Part shown: piece after piece, positions 7,326-37,606 of the stretch | Position numbering within the stretch: the first letter of the stretch is position 1 | Layout: every line of letters begins with the position of its first letter | NCBI RefSeq assembly: GCF_002896875.1 | Contig: NZ_CP023278.1 | Location: 3,472,001-3,536,000 of the forward strand | DNA: 64,000 nucleotides | Direction: 5' to 3' | Source: Nostoc sp. CENA543 | Lineage (GTDB): Bacteria; Cyanobacteriota; Cyanobacteriia; Cyanobacteriales; Nostocaceae | Program-made: the position numbers and the translations under genes | Notes under the pieces: model-generated | The model's input: the letters and a program-made list of their open reading frames with translations, nothing else | What the model was told of the DNA's origin: nothing | The model's database searches: none

Positions 7326-8381
7326 ATGAAAGTATCTGTGATTATTCCCGTTTATAATTCTGAAGGTTCTGTGGCTGAGACTTTGCGCTCAGTGTTGGCG
7401 CAGACCTATAAGGATTTTGAAATCATTATCGTTGATGATGGTTGCACAGATAAGAGTATTGAGATTTGCCAAGATTTGGATGATGCGCGGATAAAAATTG
7501 TTCATCAACGGAATCGGGGGTTAGCTGGGGCGAGAAATACCGGAATTCGTCATGCACAAGGGGAATATTTAGCCTTTATTGATAGTGATGATCTGTGGCT
7601 ACCAGAGAAGTTAGCAAAGCACGTTGAACATTTGGAGCGATCGCCTGCTGTGGGTGTGAGTTTTTCTCGCTCGATTTTGATTGATGAACAGAGTCAACCT
7701 CTAGGAATTTATCAAATGCCGAAGTTAACTGATATTACACCAGAATACTTGTTCTGTCGTAATCCCATCAGTAATGGCTCATCAGTAGTTATTCGCAGAG
7801 ATGTTCTGAAAGAGATTCAGTCTGAGGAAAATTTATATGGTGAAGTAGAAGACTTTTACTTTGACGATCGCTTCCGTCAATCTGAAGATATCGAATGCTG
7901 GCTGAGGATTGCTTTGCAAACTAATTGGAAAATCGAAGGTATAGCCGAAGCCTTGACTCTTTATCGCGTCAATATGGGCGGTTTATCGGCTAATATTCTC
8001 AAACAATACGAATCTTGGGAGCAAATTTTGGTCAAAACCCAAGTTTATAATCCTGAGTTTATTAAAAATTGGGGCAATAGGGCTAGAGCTTATCAACTAC
8101 GGTATTTAGCCAGGAGAGCAGTAAGACAGCGATCGCCTGAACTAGCTGTGAGCTTACTACACAAAGCATTAAAAACCCATTGGCGAATTCTATTAGAGGA
8201 GCCTCGACGCACATTAATCTCTTGTGGTGCTGCATATTTGCTCTGGATTTTACCCCCATCTGTTTACAAATGGTTAGAAACATTAATGATGCAAATCACC
8301 GGTATCACTCAAAAACGACGCATTCACAATGAACAAGTTAAAAGTGCAGATTTGTTGACTGTTGAACGTCAGTTGCTTTAA
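7326..8381 (+). CDS. Family 2 glycosyltransferase, second of the tandem pair
   Basis: A 351-residue GT2 enzyme with VSVIIPVYNSEGSVAETL at the N-terminus, DDGCTD, and FIDSDDLWLP as the acidic metal site. It shares with the preceding protein the phrases GGLSANILKQYESW and LRYLARRAVRQRS, and starts 15 bp after it. The pair probably adds successive sugars to one repeat unit. The last codons (LTVERQLL and the stop) lie inside a repeat that recurs, inverted, within the CPBP protease gene near 47.5 kb, so the C-terminus seems to have been rewritten by repeat insertion. Confidence 0.88.
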   Translation: MKVSVIIPVYNSEGSVAETLRSVLAQTYKDFEIIIVDDGCTDKSIEICQDLDDARIKIVHQRNRGLAGARNTGIRHAQGEYLAFIDSDDLWLPEKLAKHVEHLERSPAVGVSFSRSILIDEQSQPLGIYQMPKLTDITPEYLFCRNPISNGSSVVIRRDVLKEIQSEENLYGEVEDFYFDDRFRQSEDIECWLRIALQTNWKIEGIAEALTLYRVNMGGLSANILKQYESWEQILVKTQVYNPEFIKNWGNRARAYQLRYLARRAVRQRSPELAVSLLHKALKTHWRILLEEPRRTLISCGAAYLLWILPPSVYKWLETLMMQITGITQKRRIHNEQVKSADLLTVERQLL

Positions 8382-8420
8382 GTCGGCAGAGCCGCCCAAC
8401 ACACTGGCTCCTGTTGACTA
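8354..8420 (+). repeat. About 65-bp repeat overlapping the GT2 3' end (partner at 47531-47593)
   Basis: From GTTGAACG through GGCAGAGCCGCCCAAC to CTCCTGTTGACTA this segment matches the reverse complement of 47531-47593 with only a few differences by eye. Here it supplies the stop codon of the glycosyltransferase and part of the spacer. At the other site it is read through in frame. Confidence 0.75.
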
Positions 8421-8474
8421 TAGCTTTCCTTTACTCTCCTAATATCAAATTCCTTTACTCCAATCACATCAAGC

Positions 8475-8927
8475 ATGAAAGTATTATTGGTTTGCTCCTC
8501 CGGTGGACATTTTAAAGGTCTGCAACAATTACGTTCTTTTTGGGAAAATTATGATCGCACTTGGGTGAGTTTTAATACAGCTACAACAAAAGCTACTCTA
8601 GAGGGAGAAACTGTTTATTGGGCTTATAGTCCTACTAACCGTAATATTCCGAATTTTTTCAAGAATCTCCACTTAGCTTTGAAAGTCATTCGAGAAACTA
8701 AACCTGACATCATCATCTCTACAGGTGCTGGTGTGGCTGTTCCCTTTTTGATTCTGGGAAAACTCTTTGGTAGTCAAACAGTATTTATCGAATCTGTCAC
8801 CCGAATTCAGACTTTGAGTTTATCCGCCAAGCTAGTTTTACCCTTTCTCAGTGTTCTATATGTGCAGTGGCCGCAACTACAAGCCCGTTACCCTCAAGCT
8901 GAACTCATCAGCCCACAAGAGGGCTAG
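8475..8927 (+). CDS. Alg14-like glycosyltransferase membrane subunit (PssD/EpsE type)
   Basis: The 150 residues match the Alg14 family, the membrane-anchoring and acceptor-side half of a two-protein GT-B enzyme. The N-terminal loop CSSGGHFKGLQQL, the central STGAGVAVPFLIL and the closing VLYVQWPQLQARYP are family hallmarks. The catalytic partner, an Alg13-like protein, follows after 56 bp. Bacterial pairs of this kind add the second sugar to a lipid-linked monosaccharide in exopolysaccharide synthesis, the likely role here. The spacer to the next gene contains an imperfect CCTCACACCCCT repeat. Confidence 0.85.
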   Translation: MKVLLVCSSGGHFKGLQQLRSFWENYDRTWVSFNTATTKATLEGETVYWAYSPTNRNIPNFFKNLHLALKVIRETKPDIIISTGAGVAVPFLILGKLFGSQTVFIESVTRIQTLSLSAKLVLPFLSVLYVQWPQLQARYPQAELISPQEG

Positions 8928-8983
8928 TTATTAGTTTTTACCCTGCACCCTCACACCCCTAAACCCTCACACCCCTCCAAAAT

Positions 8984-9487
8984 ATGATTTTAGTCACCGT
9001 TGGTACAGAACAATATCCTTTTAATCGCCTCATGCACTGGGTTGAGGTGTTATTACAAAGTGAATTAATTCAAGAAGAAATTGTGGTGCAGTACGGTAAT
9101 TCGACGATTTTACCTGCTGGTGCGAAGGTTTATCGTTTTCTCAAAGAAGAGAGTTTTCAAGATTTGATTCGTCAAGCACGAATTGTGATTGCTCACTGTG
9201 GTGAAGGAACTTTACTACTGTTGGATTCGTTGGATAAGCCTTATGTTTTGGTGGCGCGCAGTCAGGAGTTTCAAGAACACGTTGATGATCATCAAGTGGA
9301 ACTAGCTTTAGCACTATCGCAGATTAATGTTCCTATTGCTTGGTGTCCTGGTGATTTGGTGCGATTTTTACAGCAGCCTAGACAAGTATCGGTTGCTGAT
9401 GTCTCTAACGCTGTGGCGATCGCGCTTTGCAATAGTCTACAAAATCGTTTTGGTCAAACAAATACTCAATTACAGGTAGGTGTATAA
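8984..9487 (+). CDS. Alg13-like glycosyltransferase catalytic subunit (PssE type, GT28 C-terminal domain)
   Basis: A 167-residue protein equal to the nucleotide-sugar-binding half of a GT-B enzyme. VTVGTEQYPFNRLMHWVE opens the fold. IAHCGEGTLLLLDSLDKP (about 69-86) corresponds to the SHAGAGS-type donor loop of the GT28 family, with the variation AHCGEGT. It follows the Alg14-like gene and is predicted to dimerise with it at the membrane. Its stop is 2 bp before the STAS-transferase gene, so it is co-transcribed with the priming enzyme. Confidence 0.86.
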   Translation: MILVTVGTEQYPFNRLMHWVEVLLQSELIQEEIVVQYGNSTILPAGAKVYRFLKEESFQDLIRQARIVIAHCGEGTLLLLDSLDKPYVLVARSQEFQEHVDDHQVELALALSQINVPIAWCPGDLVRFLQQPRQVSVADVSNAVAIALCNSLQNRFGQTNTQLQVGV

Positions 9488-9489
9488 CA

Positions 9490-10491
9490 ATGGTAGCTTC
9501 TAACTCTTCAGCAAAATTAAGTCTTGTGACTACTCGCGTCAAAAATGTTTTATTAGTGCAGATGCCCCTCAGATTAACTGTGATTGAGGCGGTGGAATTT
9601 CGCGAGTTGTTTAAAACATTGGTAGCCGATTCTACTATTACCAAAATCATTTTAGATTGGGGGCAGACCACAATTATTGATAGTAGTGGTGTTGGGGCAA
9701 TGATTAGTAGCCTCAAATTAGCACAAACTAAAAAAATCGAATTGGTTTTATGGAGTGTTAACCAGCAGGTTCAATTAGCTTTTAGTTTAGTAGGGTTGGA
9801 TATACTCTTAAATATCGAAAACCATACAGAACCTACTACTCCTACTCTCAACCGCAAGTCGGAGAAGCGTCCACCCCTAACCCATCCTTCTGTGCGATCG
9901 CCTATTAAACGTGGCATTGATATTGTCGGTGCTATCTTGGGTTTGGGTGTGACAGGATTGTTATTTGTACCGATTGCGATCGCCATTAAGCTAGATAGTC
10001 CTGGGCCTATATTATTTAGTCAAATGCGCTGTGGTTGGATGGGACGCAAGTTTCGGATTTGGAAGTTCCGTTCAATGGTAACAAATGCAGAAGCCCTAAA
10101 AGCCACAATTCCTAACCAAGCTGCTGGTGCTTTTTTCAAGAATGATCATGATCCTAGAATCACCCGTGTTGGACGCTTTCTCCGTAAAACTAGTCTGGAT
10201 GAATTTCCCCAATTTTGGAATATTCTCATCGGCGATATGAGTTTAATTGGTACTCGTCCCCCAACTCCCGATGAATTAGAACAATACGAAATTAATAATT
10301 GGCAACGGCTAGATGTTAAACCCGGACTAAGCGGTGAATGGCAAGTAAATGGCCGCTCAAAAATTCGTAATTTTGAGGATGTAATTAAACTGGATTTACG
10401 TTATCAAGATAATTGGAGTTTGCTTTATGATTTAAAGCTAATTTTGAAAACGATTGTTGTTGTGTTCAACAAAGATTCAGGAGCAGTATAA
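9490..10491 (+). CDS. STAS domain fused to a bacterial sugar transferase (initiating phosphoglycosyl transferase)
   Basis: Two modules in 333 residues. Residues about 5-108 form a STAS (anti-sigma antagonist) domain with IIDSSGVGAM at 62-71; Ser65 or Ser66 fits the site phosphorylated by RsbW-type kinases. After a linker (about 109-136, rich in Pro, Thr and basic residues) comes a monotopic phosphoglycosyl transferase of the WcaJ/WbaP type. It has a hydrophobic segment (about 143-167), KFRSM (192-196), DEFPQFWNIL (237-246), GTRPP (254-258) and KPGLSGEWQVNGRS (277-290). The enzyme should start each repeat unit by moving a sugar phosphate to undecaprenyl phosphate. Next genes encode an RsbW-like kinase (7 bp later) and a free STAS protein, so direct control of synthesis by partner switching is inferred. 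Confidence 0.88.
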   Translation: MVASNSSAKLSLVTTRVKNVLLVQMPLRLTVIEAVEFRELFKTLVADSTITKIILDWGQTTIIDSSGVGAMISSLKLAQTKKIELVLWSVNQQVQLAFSLVGLDILLNIENHTEPTTPTLNRKSEKRPPLTHPSVRSPIKRGIDIVGAILGLGVTGLLFVPIAIAIKLDSPGPILFSQMRCGWMGRKFRIWKFRSMVTNAEALKATIPNQAAGAFFKNDHDPRITRVGRFLRKTSLDEFPQFWNILIGDMSLIGTRPPTPDELEQYEINNWQRLDVKPGLSGEWQVNGRSKIRNFEDVIKLDLRYQDNWSLLYDLKLILKTIVVVFNKDSGAV

Positions 10492-10498
10492 ATATTAA

Positions 10499-10972
10499 AT
10501 GAAATTAACCAAACCTGATGTGTTAATCCATGACTCTATCCTACAACTTGCCAGCGATCTAGATGCCATATCCACAATTGTAGAATGGTTTGAGCAATTC
10601 AACCACACCCCTGTAACTCATCAATTATGGCTAGAAGCCCAAACAGCTGTAATTGAGGGTTTTACAAATGCAGTACGCCATGCTCACTGCTACTTAAATC
10701 CTGAGACTCCTGTGGATATAAATGTACAAATCTCTGAGGAATTATTCCATGTCTGTATTTGGGATCAAGGAGATATTTTTGATTTTGAACTAGCTTTAGA
10801 AAATTTTCATCGAGAAGTTAGCGATCGCGCATTTAATCCCTTAGTCCACGAATCTCACTGGGGGTGCATTTTTTTACTAAAACTTAGAAAAGAATATGGT
10901 TGGACAATTAGCTACACTCGCGAATCAGGAGATAGAAATTGCCTATCTTTGAAAAAGCCTTTAATTAATTAA
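10499..10972 (+). CDS. RsbW/SpoIIAB-like anti-sigma serine kinase (HATPase_c)
   Basis: A 157-residue stand-alone GHKL ATPase. The N-box is AVIEGFTNAVRHAH (50-63; Glu53 and Asn57 would coordinate Mg-ATP), the G1 box is WDQGD (88-92), and the glycine lid is reduced to HWGCIFLLKL (120-129). In partner switching such a kinase phosphorylates the serine of a STAS protein and alternatively binds a sigma factor or other target. It sits between two genes encoding STAS domains with DSSG motifs, 7 bp after the fusion gene. The degenerate lid makes activity slightly uncertain, but the fold assignment is good. Nostoc punctiforme has a described partner-switching system for hormogonia; orthology was not tested. 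Confidence 0.83.
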   Translation: MKLTKPDVLIHDSILQLASDLDAISTIVEWFEQFNHTPVTHQLWLEAQTAVIEGFTNAVRHAHCYLNPETPVDINVQISEELFHVCIWDQGDIFDFELALENFHREVSDRAFNPLVHESHWGCIFLLKLRKEYGWTISYTRESGDRNCLSLKKPLIN

Positions 10973-11069
10973 TATCTGGAATTAAATCATGTGTAAAATA
11001 ATTCCAACTTAATACTATATTGACTAGTATTAATCAGTATTTAGCAAAAATTGTTTTTCAGGGATAAAT

Positions 11070-11399
11070 ATGAATCACAAAGAGAAAGTAAAAGTTATTC
11101 AGCCTCGTGGAATTTTTGATGGTAGAAGAGGTAGAAAAGTTTATCAAGAAGTTATGGACTCGATTGATAAACATATCGAAACAGTTTTAGTTGACTGTCA
11201 AGATATTCAATTTATGGATAGTTCTGGGTTTGGAACTTTGCTTTTGACACTAAAAACCGTAAGGCAAAAGAAGGGAAGACTAGTTCTTTGTTCACTCAAT
11301 GAGCAAATTAGAATGATTCTCGAACTTAGTGATACAGCAAATATTTTTGAGGTGTTTCCTGACCACTCATCTTTTATTGCCACCGTACCTCAACAATAA
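11070..11399 (+). CDS. STAS-domain anti-sigma factor antagonist (SpoIIAA/RsbV-like)
   Basis: The 109 residues make a complete single STAS domain. FMDSSGFGTLLLTLKTVRQK (48-67) carries the expected phosphoserine (Ser51 or Ser52), and LNEQIRMILELSDTANIFEV is the usual C-terminal helix-strand pair. It should be phosphorylated by the RsbW-like kinase encoded upstream and dephosphorylated by the PP2C protein encoded convergently at 11784-12953. It lies 97 bp downstream of the kinase gene and is followed by a strong hairpin at 11475-11519, which probably ends the assembly run. Confidence 0.88.
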   Translation: MNHKEKVKVIQPRGIFDGRRGRKVYQEVMDSIDKHIETVLVDCQDIQFMDSSGFGTLLLTLKTVRQKKGRLVLCSLNEQIRMILELSDTANIFEVFPDHSSFIATVPQQ

Positions 11400-11474
11400 G
11401 CAGCTAGATAATATAGTTCAAATTACACGTAATAATCTCTGTTTTTTATATGAACAGGGGTTATTTATAATTTC

Positions 11475-11519
11475 TAATGATTGTAGAGAGATAGAATCAC
11501 TACCTCTCTACAATCATTA
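11475..11519 (+). terminator. Strong hairpin after the STAS gene
   Basis: A perfect 16-bp stem (TAATGATTGTAGAGAG at 11475-11490 against its complement at 11504-11519) encloses a 13-nt loop. It starts 76 bp after the STAS stop, between converging genes. No T-run follows directly, so it may be factor-assisted or mainly an RNA-protecting structure. Confidence 0.6.
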
Positions 11520-11551
11520 TTTGTAGAGTATATTTCATGCTTAATATATCT

Positions 11552-11670
11552 ATTATAGCGGTTCCCAGTTAAGTGAGGTACAGATAATATTTTGCAACGC
11601 AGAGGGGCGCGGAGTAAATCGCAGAGTTACACAGAGATTTGTACCTCAGCAGACTAGGAAACGCTATAAT
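11552..11670. repeat. MITE-like element with about 30-bp terminal inverted repeats
   Basis: The left end ATTATAGCGGTTCCCAG...TGAGGTAC and the right end GTACCTCA...CTAGGAAACGCTATAAT are imperfect inverted repeats. The interior includes the CGCAGAG-type sequence often seen scattered in cyanobacterial genomes. It has no coding capacity. It fills much of the 384-bp gap between the converging STAS and phosphatase genes. Confidence 0.7.
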
Positions 11671-11783
11671 ATGGAAATTCCACACAAAAAAATTATCTTT
11701 GTACTGAGTAAAGTCGGATTTTAAAACCGCTATCAAAATTTAATAATCATCTGGAATAACCAGATGATTAATTATCAGATTAA

Positions 11784-12953
11784 TTAGCTCAAATTAATTT
11801 CTATTAAAGAGCAGTCATCAGTAAAATTTGGACTATTACTTTGCATCTTGATCTTTGTTAAAATCAAGTCTAAATCAGATTCGGATGAATCATTACATAA
11901 ATGTAATAAATTCACTAATCCCCTCAAACCCCACATACTACCATCAGATATTTCAACTTCATAAATTCCATCGCTAAAAACATAGAGTTTACTAGATGCT
12001 GGAATATCGCATACAGCATGATGATATTCTGTTTGTGTAAAAGCACCAATGGGTAAACTAGGCGTGCATAATTGTTTGACTTCTAAACCAGATTGTTCTG
12101 AGGGGGAAAACAGTAAAGCTGGAGGATGTCCTGCACTAGCGTAAGTTAGCTGATGAGAACTGCGGTTAAAAACACCATACCAAATTGTAAAGTATTGAGC
12201 ATTGTGCTTATCCATTTGAAAGACTTCATTCAAATATTGCAATACTTCAGATGGGTGGTGGAGTTTAGCTTGAGGTAGAGAACGCGATCGCAATAAATTA
12301 TGTATAGAAATTGACGGTAGTGCTGCTGCTAGTCCATGTCCAGAAACATCAAGTAAATAAATAACTAAATTTTCATCGTCTAACCAATAGTAATCAAAAC
12401 AATCACCACCTAATTGTCGAGATGGTAAGAACCGATAGTCGATAGTAACGGCTCCTGACATCGGTGCAGGCAAAATCGATGTGACATAATCAGCAGCCTC
12501 TTTCAGTTCTATTTCTAAAAGCTGTTTTTGGACTTTTAAATCTTTCGCTAATCTTTGTAGTTCTCGATTGGCTTGATATAATCTTAATCCAGCTCGGACG
12601 CGTGCTTTTAATTCACTCATCTCGATAGGTTTACTCAAAAAATCATCTGCACCTGTATCTAAACCTTCAACTCTGTCTTCTACAGATGTTCTAGAAGTCA
12701 ATAAAATAAAAAAGGTAGTTGCTAGCAATGGTTGAGATTTAATTTCTCTGCACACTTCTAAGCCGTCCATTTCATCCATTTGCCAATCACAAATAATAAT
12801 CGCCGGATGATATTTATGTGCTTTTTCCAATCCTTGGATACCACTAGCAGCAAGAATTACTTCATATCCTTGTTCTTCTAATGTTCCTTTGATAATGAGT
12901 TGGATAACACGATCATCATCAATTACTAAAATTTTGACTTTGGAATCAGACAT
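11784..12953 (-). CDS. Response regulator with PP2C-type phosphatase output (RsbU/SpoIIE-like)
   Basis: Residues about 6-125 are a receiver domain with acidic residues at IDDD (11-14), phospho-acceptor Asp56 in ICDWQMDEMDG and Lys108 in LSKPIE. A helical linker (about 125-155) leads to a PP2C/SpoIIE phosphatase domain with metal ligands in LGGDCFD (Asp184) and LLDVSGHGLA (Asp202) and a late SDGIYE motif. Such proteins dephosphorylate STAS antagonists and reactivate them. The STAS proteins at 9490-10491 and 11070-11399 are the obvious substrates. The hybrid kinase gene upstream on the same strand is the likely phosphodonor. This gene lies between the inverted 100-bp repeat copies. Confidence 0.88.
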   Translation of the reverse strand: MSDSKVKILVIDDDRVIQLIIKGTLEEQGYEVILAASGIQGLEKAHKYHPAIIICDWQMDEMDGLEVCREIKSQPLLATTFFILLTSRTSVEDRVEGLDTGADDFLSKPIEMSELKARVRAGLRLYQANRELQRLAKDLKVQKQLLEIELKEAADYVTSILPAPMSGAVTIDYRFLPSRQLGGDCFDYYWLDDENLVIYLLDVSGHGLAAALPSISIHNLLRSRSLPQAKLHHPSEVLQYLNEVFQMDKHNAQYFTIWYGVFNRSSHQLTYASAGHPPALLFSPSEQSGLEVKQLCTPSLPIGAFTQTEYHHAVCDIPASSKLYVFSDGIYEVEISDGSMWGLRGLVNLLHLCNDSSESDLDLILTKIKMQSNSPNFTDDCSLIEINLS

Positions 12954-13021
12954 TGTAGGATTGGGGAAAAAATTTAGAATTCAAATTTCAAGAATTTGGT
13001 TAACGGTTAACCGTTGGCTAT

Positions 13022-13121
13022 TGACTGTTGACTAATGTACGGGCGGGTTTAACCAAAATATCTGTTTGACAACGTGAATCTCTCACTGAACCCGCCCCTA
13101 CTGACTATTGACTATTGACTG
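13022..13121 (-). repeat. 100-bp MITE-like repeat, copy B (inverted relative to copy A)
   Basis: This is the reverse complement of 3923-4022 with no difference found by eye over 100 bp. It lies in the spacer between the phosphatase and hybrid kinase genes and is followed by further AGTCAAT-type heptamers to about 13156. Those heptamers provide the stop codon of the kinase gene. Confidence 0.85.
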
Positions 13122-13146
13122 TTGACTATTGACTATTGACTAATGA

Positions 13147-16100
13147 CTAATGACCCTTGACTAAAAGAAATTGGAGAGCATTAACAACATTGTTATACTC
13201 CCTTTCTAGTTGATCAACCAGACTAGATAATTGCTCTAATGTTTGTTTATCTGCTACATCTTCTATGTTGGCGCAGAGTTTTCCGAGATTGAGTGCGCCA
13301 ATACTAACACTAGGCGATCGCAAAGCATGAGAAGCTTTTTTCAACTTGTCACGCTCTCCCGCAGCTAAAGCGTCTTTAATCTGTTGCACAGTTGCTGGGG
13401 TATCTTCTAGGTAGATCTGGATGACTTCCGCAATCATGTTATCGGCTTCGTTACCGCCTATTTGACGTAAATACGCTATGGTTTTCAGGTCAATCACCGA
13501 TTCTAAAGGAGGAAAACTACAGTCAACCTCACTTGTACAAGAATGTGGAGTTTCTGGTGTAGGGGATAGGTTATCTTTCACCATTGGCTGTGCAACTTGC
13601 TCTATGAAGTTTGATGTAATTTTTGAGACTTGATAATGCTCATAACCGAATTTTTTTAGGACGGCTTCTATCGCTTCTACACTAATGGGTTTACTGATGT
13701 AATCGTTCATCCCCGCTTGCAAGCATTGCTGACAATCTTCCGGGCGGGCATGGGCTGTCATGGCAATAATCCAAGGTTGGACTGTAGGAGAAAAATCTGT
13801 GCGAATCCGATGAGTTGTTTCCCAGCCATCCATTTCTGGCATTTGGATGTCCATAAACACCACATCATAGATTTGTCTTTGTAAAGCTTCTAAGGCCTCA
13901 CAACCATTATTAGCCACATCTACGCGATAACCTAGCCGATGTAGCATTTTAATGGCAATCTTTTGATTGACTAACACATCCTCAACTAGCAAAATCTTGA
14001 ATGGTAAAATTTCGGCTAACTGATGATCAATGTTGGGTAGGATCGATTTTGGCAACCGGGAGTATGAGGGAAGAACAACTGAAGAATTTGACTGTTTTAC
14101 CCAACTACCACGCACGATTTGTAAGAGTGTGTTATGTAGCTGATACTGTCTGACAGGTTTTTGCAAAAAGGCAGTAAACTCTGCTGCGATTTGTTTGACT
14201 TCTAAGGTTTGTTTCCCTTTAGAACTCAACATCACTAAAGGTAAATTTTGATATTTGGGTAAGGCACGAATCTTGGCTATCAGGTTGAGGCTGTTGATGC
14301 TGGGGCTATCAATATCCAAGATAGCCAAATTTAAGGGTGTCTGTTCCCACAAGCAATGCAGGGCAGCAGTTTGAGAATCTACGACTTGGACGGATAATCC
14401 TAAAGTTTGAAGTTGTAAGCTTAAGCATTGACGCAAGTTAGCATTGCCTACCGCTAGTAATATGCGTCTGCCCACTAGTTCCGGATCAGCATCGAGGTAA
14501 TTATCAATATCGTGAGATTGGACAGGGAAAATGGCTGTGAAATGGAATTTAGAACCAAGGTTGATTTCACTGTCTACCCACATTCTGCCGCCCATGATTT
14601 CGCACAAACGCTTGCTGATGGCTAATCCTAAACCAGTACCGCCATAACGTCTGGTCATGGAAGCATCTACTTGACTAAAGGGCTTAAACAGTCGATGCAG
14701 ACGATCGCTAGGTATACCGATACCTGTATCTTGGATAGTGAATTGGCATTCATATCTGTTGTTCAGCAATGGCCGGGCGGCGATCGCCACCAGAATTTCT
14801 CCTTCATTGGTAAATTTGACGGCGTTGCTGACTAAGTTCCAGAGAATTTGACGCAGGCGGGTAATATCACCAATAATTTGTGTGGGTGTGTCTGATGACA
14901 GTTGATACATCAGTTCAATCCCTTTGGAAGCAGCTTGCGGTGCTAACAAATCTAAAGCTTCTTCAACGCAGGTACGTAACTCGAAGGGCTGTGCTTCTAA
15001 CTCTAGGTTGCCAGATTCAATCTTAGAAAAGTCGAGAATATCATTGATGATTGTCAATAAAGCACTACCACTATTACGGATAGTTTCTACATAATCTAGT
15101 TGCTCAGGGTTCAAAGTCGTATCTAACAGTAGCCCAGTCATACCAATAATCGCATTCATGGGAGTGCGAATTTCATGACTCATGGTGGCGAGGAAGTTAC
15201 TTTTAGCCATGTTGGCAGTTTCTGCTGCTTGCTTGGCTTGGTTGAGTTCTTCATTTTGCCGTGCGAGGAGTTCGGTTTGTTGGCTGGCTTGAGATAGTAA
15301 CTGGGCTTGATGCAGGGCTATACCCATTTGATCTGCTAAGTGTTTGAGCAGATCCAGTTCTAGTTCAGTCCATTGTCTGGGGCGATCGCATTGATGGGCA
15401 ATCAATAAACCCCACAAATTATCCCGTACCAAAATCGGCACGACTAGATTGGCCTTGACTTGAAATCGCTGTAAAAATTCTATATGGCAAGCTTGAAATC
15501 CTGCTTGCTCTATATCAGTAATAGTAGTGATATTGCCAGCACGATACCAGTCAAGATATCCTTTCCTGAGACAAGGATCATTAATATCTTGATCCAGAGT
15601 TACTGACCATCCAGGAACAACAGCTTCCTCCACCACTTTACCAGACCCATCAGGGTTGATGCGGAAAATGAGGACGCGATCGGCCTGCAAAATCTTCTGT
15701 ACTTCTGTGACTGTTGTTTGCAGAATTTTTTCTAGTTTTAAGGACTGACGAATTTCTTCAGTCATTTGCTTTAATAACAAAGCTCTTTGGTATTGCTGCT
15801 TCAGTTCTGTTTCAGCTTGTTTGCGTTCGGTAATATCTAAATGTGTTCCCACCATTCTCAAAGCTTTTCCTTGGGAATCAGTGCTGACTAATTTACCTCG
15901 GTCTAAAATCCACTTCCATTCTCCAGATTTAGATAGTAAACGCATTTCCGCTTCATATACGGGGGTTTCTCCGCAAATGTGGGCTTTTAGTTGTCGTTGC
16001 ATTCGGGGGAAATCCTCTGGATGAATCAACCGATTTCTCAGTTGAACCCCTATCCTTTCCATCTCTTCTGGGGCGTAACCTAGCATAGTGAAGCAACGTG

Positions 16101-17133
16101 AACTGCGGTAAATTTCTCCAGTTACTAAGTTCCAATCCCAAATGCCTTCAGCCACAGCATCTAGAGCGAGTTTTAACCGTTCTTCACTCAATTTCACCGC
16201 ATTTTCTGCTTTTTTTCTTTCGGTAACATCACGATATTTCCACAGATGACCGTATAAATGGCCATCCAGTATGATAGGAATATAATCTTGTTCCAAGATT
16301 CGTCCATCTCGTAACTGCCATTCTTGATGGAGAACGATTTTGTCTTGCTTGATGACTTCCTGCAAATGACAAATAAATTGCTCTGGTTGGGTAAACAGGT
16401 ATTGGCTATTCTCAGCTATCTGTTGACAGTCCTGACCCTGCAAGGCTTCAGGGGTGTGGAGAATACCAAACTGCCGACAGAATTCCTGATTAGTCAGTAA
16501 AATTCCTCTGTTTTCATCTTCTAGCAAGATGCCGATTTGTAAACTTTCAATCAGTTGGCTCAATAATAAGACTGTGGCGCGTAATTCTACCTGTTGAGAT
16601 TTAAGTTGTGTGGTGAGTTTTTGGGCATCTGCCAAAGCAGTGTTTTGGGCTTGCAATAGAAACAGATTATCTAGAACAGAGTCATACAGAGGGAAATCGT
16701 TGATACTCAGATCTAAGTTTTTGAGATCAGCAATATCGGTGATGTGAGGAGAAGCCAGAAACAAGAGGGAATCAGAGGCTTCTAGATACAGCATTTGTCC
16801 TTTGAACTGGATTTCTTTGTGCTGAGGTCGCAATAAAAACACTGAGCGCGATCGCTGTTTCATCGATTCAAAGTTTACTAAGCGGTTGGGGCGATGAATC
16901 TGGAAATGTTCGATCAGTGAACTTCCAAGTAATGTAATGGGTGCAAAAATACGCTGAATCCTTTCACTCACCTGTACAATCTTCATCTCACGATTGATGA
17001 TCAAATGGAAGGGAAATAGAGTCACAAATTGTTCATATGTCAGACTAAATTGTTTGATATCATCATTTATTTCACTAGTCATAGAAGGGTAATTAATTTG
17101 GATTAAATTTTCAAAATCAGTATTCATACGCAA
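13147..17133 (-). CDS. HNOBA-PAS-PAS-GAF hybrid histidine kinase with two receivers and an Hpt domain
   Basis: A 1328-residue sensor kinase. Residues about 36-175 match the HNOBA (heme-NO-binding-associated) domain: FPFHLIINREMKIVQVSERI, KGQMLYLEASDSLLFLASP and the connector FLLQAQNTALADAQKL. Then come two PAS/PAC domains (about 190-440), a GAF domain (about 455-615), HisKA with HEIRTPMN (about 650) and a HATPase. The first receiver (about 885-1005) lacks the acidic pair. The second is intact (LLVEDVLVNQK, then MDIQMPEMDG), and a C-terminal Hpt carries the histidine in ASHALRSPS. No H-NOX gene is adjacent. The chain His-Asp-His suggests transfer to a separate receiver, most simply the neighbouring receiver-PP2C protein. 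The last residue and stop come from heptameric repeats. Confidence 0.88.
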   Translation of the reverse strand: MRMNTDFENLIQINYPSMTSEINDDIKQFSLTYEQFVTLFPFHLIINREMKIVQVSERIQRIFAPITLLGSSLIEHFQIHRPNRLVNFESMKQRSRSVFLLRPQHKEIQFKGQMLYLEASDSLLFLASPHITDIADLKNLDLSINDFPLYDSVLDNLFLLQAQNTALADAQKLTTQLKSQQVELRATVLLLSQLIESLQIGILLEDENRGILLTNQEFCRQFGILHTPEALQGQDCQQIAENSQYLFTQPEQFICHLQEVIKQDKIVLHQEWQLRDGRILEQDYIPIILDGHLYGHLWKYRDVTERKKAENAVKLSEERLKLALDAVAEGIWDWNLVTGEIYRSSRCFTMLGYAPEEMERIGVQLRNRLIHPEDFPRMQRQLKAHICGETPVYEAEMRLLSKSGEWKWILDRGKLVSTDSQGKALRMVGTHLDITERKQAETELKQQYQRALLLKQMTEEIRQSLKLEKILQTTVTEVQKILQADRVLIFRINPDGSGKVVEEAVVPGWSVTLDQDINDPCLRKGYLDWYRAGNITTITDIEQAGFQACHIEFLQRFQVKANLVVPILVRDNLWGLLIAHQCDRPRQWTELELDLLKHLADQMGIALHQAQLLSQASQQTELLARQNEELNQAKQAAETANMAKSNFLATMSHEIRTPMNAIIGMTGLLLDTTLNPEQLDYVETIRNSGSALLTIINDILDFSKIESGNLELEAQPFELRTCVEEALDLLAPQAASKGIELMYQLSSDTPTQIIGDITRLRQILWNLVSNAVKFTNEGEILVAIAARPLLNNRYECQFTIQDTGIGIPSDRLHRLFKPFSQVDASMTRRYGGTGLGLAISKRLCEIMGGRMWVDSEINLGSKFHFTAIFPVQSHDIDNYLDADPELVGRRILLAVGNANLRQCLSLQLQTLGLSVQVVDSQTAALHCLWEQTPLNLAILDIDSPSINSLNLIAKIRALPKYQNLPLVMLSSKGKQTLEVKQIAAEFTAFLQKPVRQYQLHNTLLQIVRGSWVKQSNSSVVLPSYSRLPKSILPNIDHQLAEILPFKILLVEDVLVNQKIAIKMLHRLGYRVDVANNGCEALEALQRQIYDVVFMDIQMPEMDGWETTHRIRTDFSPTVQPWIIAMTAHARPEDCQQCLQAGMNDYISKPISVEAIEAVLKKFGYEHYQVSKITSNFIEQVAQPMVKDNLSPTPETPHSCTSEVDCSFPPLESVIDLKTIAYLRQIGGNEADNMIAEVIQIYLEDTPATVQQIKDALAAGERDKLKKASHALRSPSVSIGALNLGKLCANIEDVADKQTLEQLSSLVDQLEREYNNVVNALQFLLVKGH

Positions 17134-36949: not shown

Positions 36950-37606
36950 TTAGGCATCAAGATAGTTTTGCAATTGGGTTTGCAAGCGGGATCTGGCTCT
37001 AGCTATTCTCGACTTCACAGTTCCTAGAGAAACTCCGGTGATTTCGGCTATTTCTTCGTATGCCATACCTTCGATTTCTCTTAAAACAATGGTAGTCCGG
37101 AATACTTCAGGCAGATCCGCGATCGCTTCTCGCAATTGCTCGTAAAATTCTCTTGTTGTCAGTTCTTCTTCTGGCCCTGGAGTGTCTCCCGCGATTTCCC
37201 AATCCATTTCACCATCATCTACTGAACGGGGAGCATCTAAAGATAAAGGACTGACAACCCGCTTACGCTTACGTAATTCGTCATAAAACAAATTAGTGGC
37301 AATGCGGCTTAACCAACCTCTAAACTTAGACGGTTCTTGTAATCGGTTGATGTGCCGATATACTCGAATCCATACTTCTTGAGCCAAGTCGGCTCTATCT
37401 GGCCAATCAGGAGCTAGGTGGTACAAGACTCTATCAACTTGGGTTTGATAGCGGCGCAACAATTCTGCAAAAGCAGCACGATCTGGACGCAGTCCGGCTT
37501 GACAGCGCAAAATTAAATCATGGTTTGAGAGTTTGTCAACTTGCACCGATGCTTCTGAGTACCCCGCATCAACCGTTGACCAGGATACAGTAATCGATTG
37601 ACTCAT
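36950..37606 (-). CDS. sigG: ECF (group 3) sigma factor, SigG type
   Basis: About 218 residues from the ATG at 37606 (MSQSITVSWSTVDAG); the frame is open further upstream to 37759 but that part is not sigma-like. Region 2 is FAELLRRYQTQVDRVLYHL, DRADLAQEVWIRVYRHINRL and FRGWLSRIATNLFYDELRKR. Region 4 is LPEVFRTTIVLREIEGMAYE, then EIAEITGVSLGTVKSRIARA as the helix-turn-helix. The N-terminal extension and paired anti-sigma gene resemble cyanobacterial SigG, an essential envelope- or redox-responsive sigma in related organisms. The symbol is by resemblance, not by tree. Confidence 0.85.
   Translation of the reverse strand: MSQSITVSWSTVDAGYSEASVQVDKLSNHDLILRCQAGLRPDRAAFAELLRRYQTQVDRVLYHLAPDWPDRADLAQEVWIRVYRHINRLQEPSKFRGWLSRIATNLFYDELRKRKRVVSPLSLDAPRSVDDGEMDWEIAGDTPGPEEELTTREFYEQLREAIADLPEVFRTTIVLREIEGMAYEEIAEITGVSLGTVKSRIARARSRLQTQLQNYLDA

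Follow-up and report, generated by a model that had tools for sequence, protein, structure and literature searches.

The locus analyzed here raises the question of whether an enzyme that starts polysaccharide synthesis may be controlled directly by partner switching. It lies in a stretch of 64,000 nucleotides from Nostoc sp. CENA543 (the window), in which a gene for a fusion of a STAS domain with a phosphoglycosyl transferase is followed by genes for an RsbW-like kinase and a free STAS protein. A sequence-only reading of the window had proposed that initiation is gated by binding or phosphorylation of the fused STAS domain, or that the membrane-bound enzyme ties up the kinase as a sink.

A STAS domain fused to a predicted initiating transferase

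The sequence-only reading had described one frame encoding a complete STAS domain with the motif DSSG (residues 64-67) and a complete transferase, and this description was correct: Pfam identified both domains in a single ORF of 333 amino acids (Table 1), and positions 1-178 of the 179 positions of the Bac_transf profile (PF02397) were aligned. The two domains are separated by a linker of approximately residues 114-131, and S65 is the candidate phospho-acceptor. The protein has the complete Bac_transf domain and the Asp-Glu dyad of monotopic phosphoglycosyl transferases; the dyad, which we take to be catalytic, is D237-E238, and it is present in 82 of 83 collected fusions, the remaining row being an interrupted gene. 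The fused domain combines the STAS fold with DSSG, as is typical for the RsbV/SpoIIAA type, and at 40.8 bits it stays below the TIGR00377 cut-off of 53.45 for stand-alone, single-domain proteins. An AlphaFold2 model (45 aligned rows) had a mean pLDDT of 83.6 and a pTM of 0.59, with values below 50 for residues 117-128; this profile suggests two well-folded domains joined by a flexible linker. In Foldseek searches, PglC and WbaP were matched by the C-terminal part of the model, whereas its N-terminal part matched SpoIIAA and RsbV, including 1tid and 6m36. Because TIGR03025 aligns with residues 61-329, it was also considered that the protein might be related to the large monoPGTs and carry the N-terminal domain common in these, yet this was rejected because Pfam and Foldseek both identified a STAS domain. 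Judged from sequence, the best explanation is that the fusion would be the initiating phosphoglycosyl transferase of the polysaccharide locus and would carry its own means of regulation in the form of the RsbV-like STAS domain. For the predicted transfer of a sugar-1-phosphate to polyprenyl phosphate, the only evidence is genetic and comes from the relative XssP (PMC8205485, accessible part).

Table 1. Features of the locus, in window coordinates
Feature	Position	Strand	Remarks
PssD-like glycosyltransferase subunit	8475..8927	+	NF041549 over cut-off
PssE-like glycosyltransferase subunit	8984..9487	+	Glyco_tran_28_C 3.3e-12; ends 2 bp before fusion
STAS-phosphoglycosyl transferase fusion, 333 aa	9490..10491	+	ATG start, single frame
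STAS domain, residues 14-113	9529..9828	+	Pfam E=2.5e-12, over cut-off; DSSG = residues 64-67
Bac_transf / monotopic phosphoglycosyl transferase domain, residues 140-326	9907..10467	+	Pfam E=1.6e-64
RsbW/SpoIIAB-like serine kinase, 157 aa	10499..10972	+	HATPase_c_2 4.3e-12; 7 bp after fusion
Free single-domain STAS protein with DSSG (RsbV-like), 109 aa	11070..11399	+	Pfam 2e-16
Terminator-like stem-loop after free STAS gene	11431..11465	+	Consensus scan only
Receiver-SpoIIE (PP2C) phosphatase, 389 aa, convergent	11784..12953	-	Response_reg 9.2e-28, SpoIIE 1.9e-38
Hybrid histidine kinase (PAS, GAF, HisKA, HATPase, receivers, Hpt)	13147..17133	-	Pfam

Neighboring genes in the window

The two genes downstream of the fusion had been read as an RsbW-like kinase followed by a free STAS protein. 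HATPase_c_2, the STAS model of Pfam, and TIGR00377, for which the free STAS protein scored 70.2 bits against the cut-off of 53.45, agree with that reading. In NCBIfam, the kinase matched models of RsbW and SpoIIAB alone, and none of these matches reached the equivalog cut-off (25.8, 25.1, and 21.1 bits versus 145, 155, and 135). The best Foldseek matches of its AlphaFold model (pLDDT 88.8) were SpoIIAB and RsbW, and the protein has the same fold as well as the Glu and Asn of the N-box, residues with a role in RsbW/SpoIIAB kinases. These residues, E53 and N57, did not vary among the 34 kinases that were aligned. In one stretch of the alignment, which we take to be the G2 box, the window-type kinases depart from the RGL consensus. 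By its sequence, the kinase has the looks of an RsbW without being filed as one.

A terminator scan of positions 8300-13200 yielded six stem-loops, compared with 3.3 +/- 1.8 expected, and the one behind the free STAS gene is a plausible operon end. Three elements were absent from the sequence-only reading, namely the receiver-SpoIIE phosphatase, the hybrid histidine kinase, which is the likely input to the module, and a second STAS-transferase of the same genome. Kinase, STAS, and SpoIIE phosphatase are encoded in one locus; with the convergent phosphatase and the hybrid kinase, it contains the parts of an Rsb-type module together with a plausible two-component input. The neighborhood of kinase, free STAS, phosphatase, and hybrid kinase recurs in three further loci (L043, L044, L045), and a kinase and a phosphatase are also found near the fusion in L046 and L041 (among these five loci, phosphatase domains were checked in L046 only). 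Upstream of the PssD- and PssE-like genes, the latter with an NF041548 score below the cut-off, are genes for a pyruvyl transferase, a group 1 glycosyltransferase, two family 2 glycosyltransferases, and a flippase-type polysaccharide protein. Elsewhere in the window, a Sigma70_r2 match (37259-37462, minus strand, 1.0e-18, open frame of 273 aa) is located about 26 kb from the kinase.

Distribution of the fusions

A survey of other STAS-transferase fusions and their neighbors, which had been suggested as a check, was carried out. The fusion protein was matched at 1e-30 in 149 of 292 cyanobacterial genomes, and at least 67 of the 292, counted among the matches listed, contained a full-length fusion with both domains covered, defined as a match beginning no later than residue 23 and extending at least to residue 329. 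Because the same domain order and motif thereby recur across the phylum, the possibility of a chance fusion or frame artefact was rejected. The closest named relative (86% identity) was found in Trichormus sp. M33_DOE_039. In a tree of the transferase domains that contained 21 unfused relatives, the fusions formed one side of a branch with a support of 85, and, on this tree, they may have a single origin.

Altogether 83 fusions were collected, including the contigs L040 and L041, three PssD-PssE-STAS-transferase fusions, the interrupted L120, and XssP. The searches beyond the cyanobacterial genomes covered plasmids and a pattern scan of contigs. Nine of 1036 plasmid records covered at least 80% of the query, and, among the eight of these that were listed, five were XssP of Synechocystis; the plasmid matches H12, H16, and H39 had 31-35% identity to the fusion. 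The pattern scan returned four loci: L040 and L041 were counted, L039 agrees with L043 in the length and range of its contig, and L042 is a fragment only. In all neighborhood scans, the first possible start codon was used as the start of an ORF.

Several unusual arrangements were observed. In L117 (6995-9133), L118 (6998-9154), and L119 (1184-3376), PssD, PssE, STAS, and transferase are joined in a single polypeptide of 712-730 aa (each of the four parts was matched by phmmer; Pfam was checked for L117 only and did not report the PssE part there), and two of the three read DSAG in place of DSSG. L048 (6998-8419) encodes a PssE-STAS-transferase fusion of 473 aa, with a kinase gene 50 bp away on the opposite strand. 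The STAS-transferase genes of L120 (6947-7944) and L121 (6618-7651) are interrupted or split between frames, which is either a sequencing error or a real split. In L160 (6992-8240), an unfused transferase gene directly follows a separate STAS gene that reads DGFG and lacks the DSSG serine; this pair may be the unfused counterpart of the fusion.

Linkage of kinase and fusion genes

A kinase gene was found within 1 kb of 33 of the 83 fusions, in 32 of the 33 cases downstream on the same strand; 13 of the linked kinase genes overlap the fusion gene and 12 are at a distance of 0-60 bp from it. As a control, 20 loci with unfused transferases were used (the best unfused rows of the 292-genome survey, from 18 genomes), and a profile search over about 7 kb gave no kinase match at any of them. 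The difference between 33 of 83 and 0 of 20 corresponds to a Fisher p of 2.7e-4, not corrected for relatedness. Neighbors in the 83-row count were detected by single-sequence phmmer at 1e-3, and those at the control loci with a profile at 1e-4; with the control's profile, the fetched fusion loci gave matches in 34 of 83, a set that omits the window and includes L121 and L055. In L055, the kinase, phosphatase, and free STAS genes are upstream, with the kinase 2.5 kb away.

The unlinked fusions are distributed unevenly: 35 form one clade (support 96), eight belong to the clade of XssP and the multi-fusions, and seven are scattered. Outside these two clades, 33 of 40 fusions are linked. The clade of 35 solitary fusions, from the window's family, taken to be Nostocaceae on account of the closest named relative, is nested in a mostly kinase-linked part of the tree. 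The scattered fusions are L055, the interrupted L120, those of G187 and G070, and L050, L107, and L109. In the last three, DSSG is intact and no kinase match was found in the fetched stretch; their genomes (G008, G286, and G170, respectively) encode family kinases elsewhere. An unlinked kinase of G187 groups with a linked kinase (support 99), and one of G070 falls among linked kinases with weaker support.

Conservation of the DSSG motif and co-divergence with the kinase

D64 and S65 are present in all 83 fusions. DSSG is intact in 78 of them, including 33 of 33 kinase-linked fusions and all 35 members of the solitary clade. The other five, which read DSAG (two), DSSA (two), and DSAA (XssP), all fall into one clade without linked kinases. 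Of the other members of this clade, L113 and L114 have kept DSSG and lost the glycine two residues further on, whereas L118, counter to the decay pattern, has kept DSSG. The genomes of L113, L115, and L116 (G014, G076, G093) gave kinase matches of 1.5e-7, none, and 7.3e-4, respectively. Both G193 and G282, which contain the DSAG fusions, encode family kinases elsewhere in the genome, and in G080, which holds L114, a family kinase lies beside the other fusion of that genome.

Distances were compared for 30 linked pairs, i.e. the 33 linked loci minus three near-copies. Kinase distances correlated with STAS distances at r=0.84 and with transferase distances at 0.75. The partial correlation of STAS and kinase given the transferase was 0.62, a value reached by 0 of 2000 permutations, and that of transferase and kinase given STAS was 0.25 (p=0.004). 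Similar values were obtained when the transferase was represented by its 104 most variable columns (0.66 for STAS-kinase, 0.22 for transferase-kinase), with the 22 pairs of the main clade alone (0.50 versus 0.25), and with the 25 pairs left without long-branched loci (0.59 versus 0.29). The divergence of the kinase therefore follows that of the STAS domain more closely than that of the transferase domain. This may be due to shared ancestry, which the permutations leave in, or to differences in rate.

The solitary second copy and the orphan kinase

The second STAS-transferase gene of the window's genome (L036 8522-9571; G000:C1:6901566-6902564) belongs to the solitary clade of 35. That it shares a linked kinase was rejected, as no kinase match was found in the fetched 18 kb. 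All 35 solitary fusions, including L036, have kept DSSG although the fetched stretch contained no kinase match; conservation of the motif thus extends to loci at which no partner is visible. Besides the window kinase, the protein of this genome that best matches the linked-kinase profile is an orphan kinase (L139 7709-8170), whose gene is preceded by petB/petD and followed by a group 1 glycosyltransferase gene; a single clade (support 100) comprises the 12 orphan kinases that were sampled from the window's family. The orphan kinase may serve the solitary fusion, a sigma factor, or neither. Pairing it with L036 is a guess, and an anti-sigma role would suit equally well because a sigma-factor gene (L139 ~11131-11952) is about 3 kb away. 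The same genome also contains a gene for a SpoIIE-domain phosphatase, the N-terminal part of which is presumably GAF-like, about 1.7 kb from that of an initiating transferase free of STAS (L037 1367-2758 and 4412-5197).

The XssP lineage

WP_011153594, encoded on a plasmid of Synechocystis PCC 6803, contains a STAS domain (1.7e-9) and a Bac_transf domain (5.2e-67; both Pfam), has 54% identity to the window fusion over 86% of the query, and falls inside the fused clade. Its gene adjoins two-component and NACHT genes as well as glycosyltransferase genes of the synechan (xss) cluster; we identified it as XssP from this position and the description in the papers. XssP shares the STAS-Bac_transf architecture with the window fusion, but it reads DSAA instead of DSSG, and no kinase match was found in the fetched 41 kb around the gene. 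According to the accessible part of PMC8205485, XssP is the priming glycosyltransferase, and strains from which it was deleted no longer formed blooms and had suppressed EPS. It belongs to a gene set with which S. elongatus made a sulfated polysaccharide of similar kind (PMC13125312, accessible part), and transcriptional control by XssQ/R/S is described in these papers as far as accessible (PMC8205485, PMC13125312). The word STAS does not occur in the main texts of PMC8205485 and PMC13125312, nor does anti-sigma in the main text of the former. XssP may meet a family kinase encoded elsewhere in Synechocystis PCC 6803 or S. elongatus.

Discussion

Taken together, these observations give indirect support to the proposal of direct gating: conserved kinase-fusion pairs, the invariant S65 and N-box, the co-divergence of STAS and kinase, and the decay of DSSG only in a clade without linked kinases all point to it. 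Other observations speak against it: DSSG is intact in the solitary fusions, in L050, L107, and L109, and in L118, none of which has a linked kinase; G193, G282, and G080 combine fusions of the XssP clade with family kinases; sigma-factor genes lie about 3 kb from the orphan kinase and about 26 kb from the window kinase; and the window-type kinases depart from the RGL consensus in the presumed G2 box. In the mechanism that we favor, the RsbW-like kinase (10499-10972) would bind the fused STAS domain and phosphorylate S65, and this switch would gate the first transfer of a sugar-phosphate to the lipid carrier. Kinase binding or phosphorylation would lower the transferase activity. A signal received by the hybrid histidine kinase would activate the receiver-SpoIIE phosphatase, which would dephosphorylate both the fused and the free STAS, and the dephosphorylated free STAS would compete for the kinase. 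The parts of this scheme differ in strength. That the kinase pairs with the fused STAS domain is very probable, and that it gates the enzyme is probable, to a lesser degree. Provided that gating occurs, a brake is rather more probable than an accelerator, and we lean towards the phosphatase and the free STAS as the release arm at the window locus. As a whole, the best explanation is that the kinase acts directly on the fused STAS and gates initiation, probably as a brake, and we hold it to be reasonably likely. We see about an even chance for the extension to the whole cyanobacterial class, namely that these initiating enzymes are tethered partner-switching outputs gated by an RsbW-like kinase, that the XssP lineage has decayed toward transcriptional control, and that the solitary fusions are perhaps served by a kinase encoded elsewhere.

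The STAS domain could instead be mainly a structural module that dimerizes or localizes the enzyme and replaces the cytoplasmic domain of large monoPGTs, with phosphorylation minor or absent. XssP and four relatives have kept the STAS fold while DSSG-x-G has decayed and no kinase is near, and the domain thus seems to have some value without a switch; furthermore, the domain that precedes the catalytic domain in WbaP and EpsZ is linked to dimerization or regulator binding in the accessible part of PMC12802240. However, the universal presence of S65, the intact DSSG in every linked fusion, and a kinase that is linked to and co-diverges with the STAS domain make a mainly structural role unlikely.

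Alternatively, direct gating might be real and its sign reversed, with kinase binding or phosphorylation activating the transferase. The present data do not fix the sign, and two precedents, described in the accessible parts of the papers, are activating: EpsW~P is proposed to activate EpsZ, and SiaC activates SiaD via an active dimer (PMC12802240, PMC8457831). Against this stands XssP, which is required and apparently active despite its decayed motif and the lack of a kinase match in the fetched region (PMC8205485, accessible part). This mildly favors the kinase as a brake, and we regard activation as improbable.

The other proposal of the sequence-only reading, that the membrane-bound fusion keeps the kinase sequestered while the free STAS, a sigma factor, or another regulator is the true output, was weakened. 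It is in line with the free STAS gene behind the kinase in the window and L043-L045, with the nine STAS and ten Sigma70_r2 matches in the genome, one sigma gene being present in the window itself, and with HmpV, the output of a related system and of undefined target (PMC6495340, PMC8256260, accessible parts). Yet in 25 of the 33 linked loci, neither a free STAS nor a phosphatase was found in the fetched stretch (phmmer 1e-3; some stretches are short), and by these counts the free STAS is the less conserved partner. The predominance of loci with only fusion and kinase argues against sequestration, which we consider quite improbable.

Several known systems resemble the window locus in part. The Rsb and SpoIIA systems (RsbV-RsbW-RsbU, SpoIIAA-SpoIIAB-SpoIIE) share with it the DSSG STAS protein, the RsbW-like kinase, and the SpoIIE phosphatase, and the folds match 1til, 1th8, and 6m36; in contrast to them, the window locus has one STAS domain fused to an enzyme, and the only Sigma70_r2 match of the window is remote. 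SiaABCD is a partner-switching system, and SiaC is not known to be a STAS protein. Unlike the fused STAS domain, SiaC is a separate protein, and its enzyme is a diguanylate cyclase; as in our reading of the window, the partner protein acts directly on the enzyme (PMC8457831, accessible part). Binding of SiaC directly activates SiaD in Pseudomonas aeruginosa by promoting the active dimer (PMC8457831, accessible part), so the idea that control of an enzyme by partner switching without a sigma factor would in itself be new did not stand. In the model proposed for Myxococcus xanthus, EpsW~P binds EpsZ, an initiating monoPGT, and activates it. The accessible part of PMC12802240 thus describes a signaling protein that appears to bind an initiating monoPGT and exert post-translational control, as is proposed for the window; however, EpsW is a separate receiver protein, EpsZ is a large monoPGT, and neither STAS nor a serine kinase is described there. 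The two precedents, a regulator that binds an initiating enzyme and a partner that activates its enzyme, make the gating logic plausible.

In Nostoc punctiforme, HmpU, HmpV, and HmpW form a partner-switching system, named for motility and polysaccharide, with a STAS protein as output (PMC6495340, PMC8256260, accessible parts). HmpV and the window fusion, compared by description, differ in that the window STAS is fused to its likely target. SypA and SypE of Vibrio fischeri also represent a STAS protein and a serine kinase that control a polysaccharide locus, but SypA is a separate protein of undefined target (PMC8256260, accessible part). A fusion of STAS with an initiating transferase was not described among the literature matches listed (titles and abstract openings); a sequence-based survey of small monoPGTs, cited for regulatory-domain fusions in the accessible part of PMC12802240 and outside this coverage, may mention STAS. 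Within the literature searchable here, a STAS domain covalently attached to an initiating enzyme together with a conserved partner kinase appears to be new.

If the proposed mechanism is true, a phospho-controlled partner would switch a costly pathway at the very step that opens it and consumes lipid carrier, without awaiting transcription, and a second design for the control of initiating enzymes would exist beside the myxobacterial EpsW-EpsZ. One cyanobacterial partner-switching system would then have an identified enzyme output, whereas the target of HmpV is stated to be unknown in the accessible part of PMC8256260. The analysis also points out a STAS domain in XssP, an enzyme that is already used in engineered polysaccharide production and in which the domain is unnamed in the main texts of PMC8205485 and PMC13125312. 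Cyanobacteria may control the start of slime production by swapping protein partners rather than by turning genes on or off.
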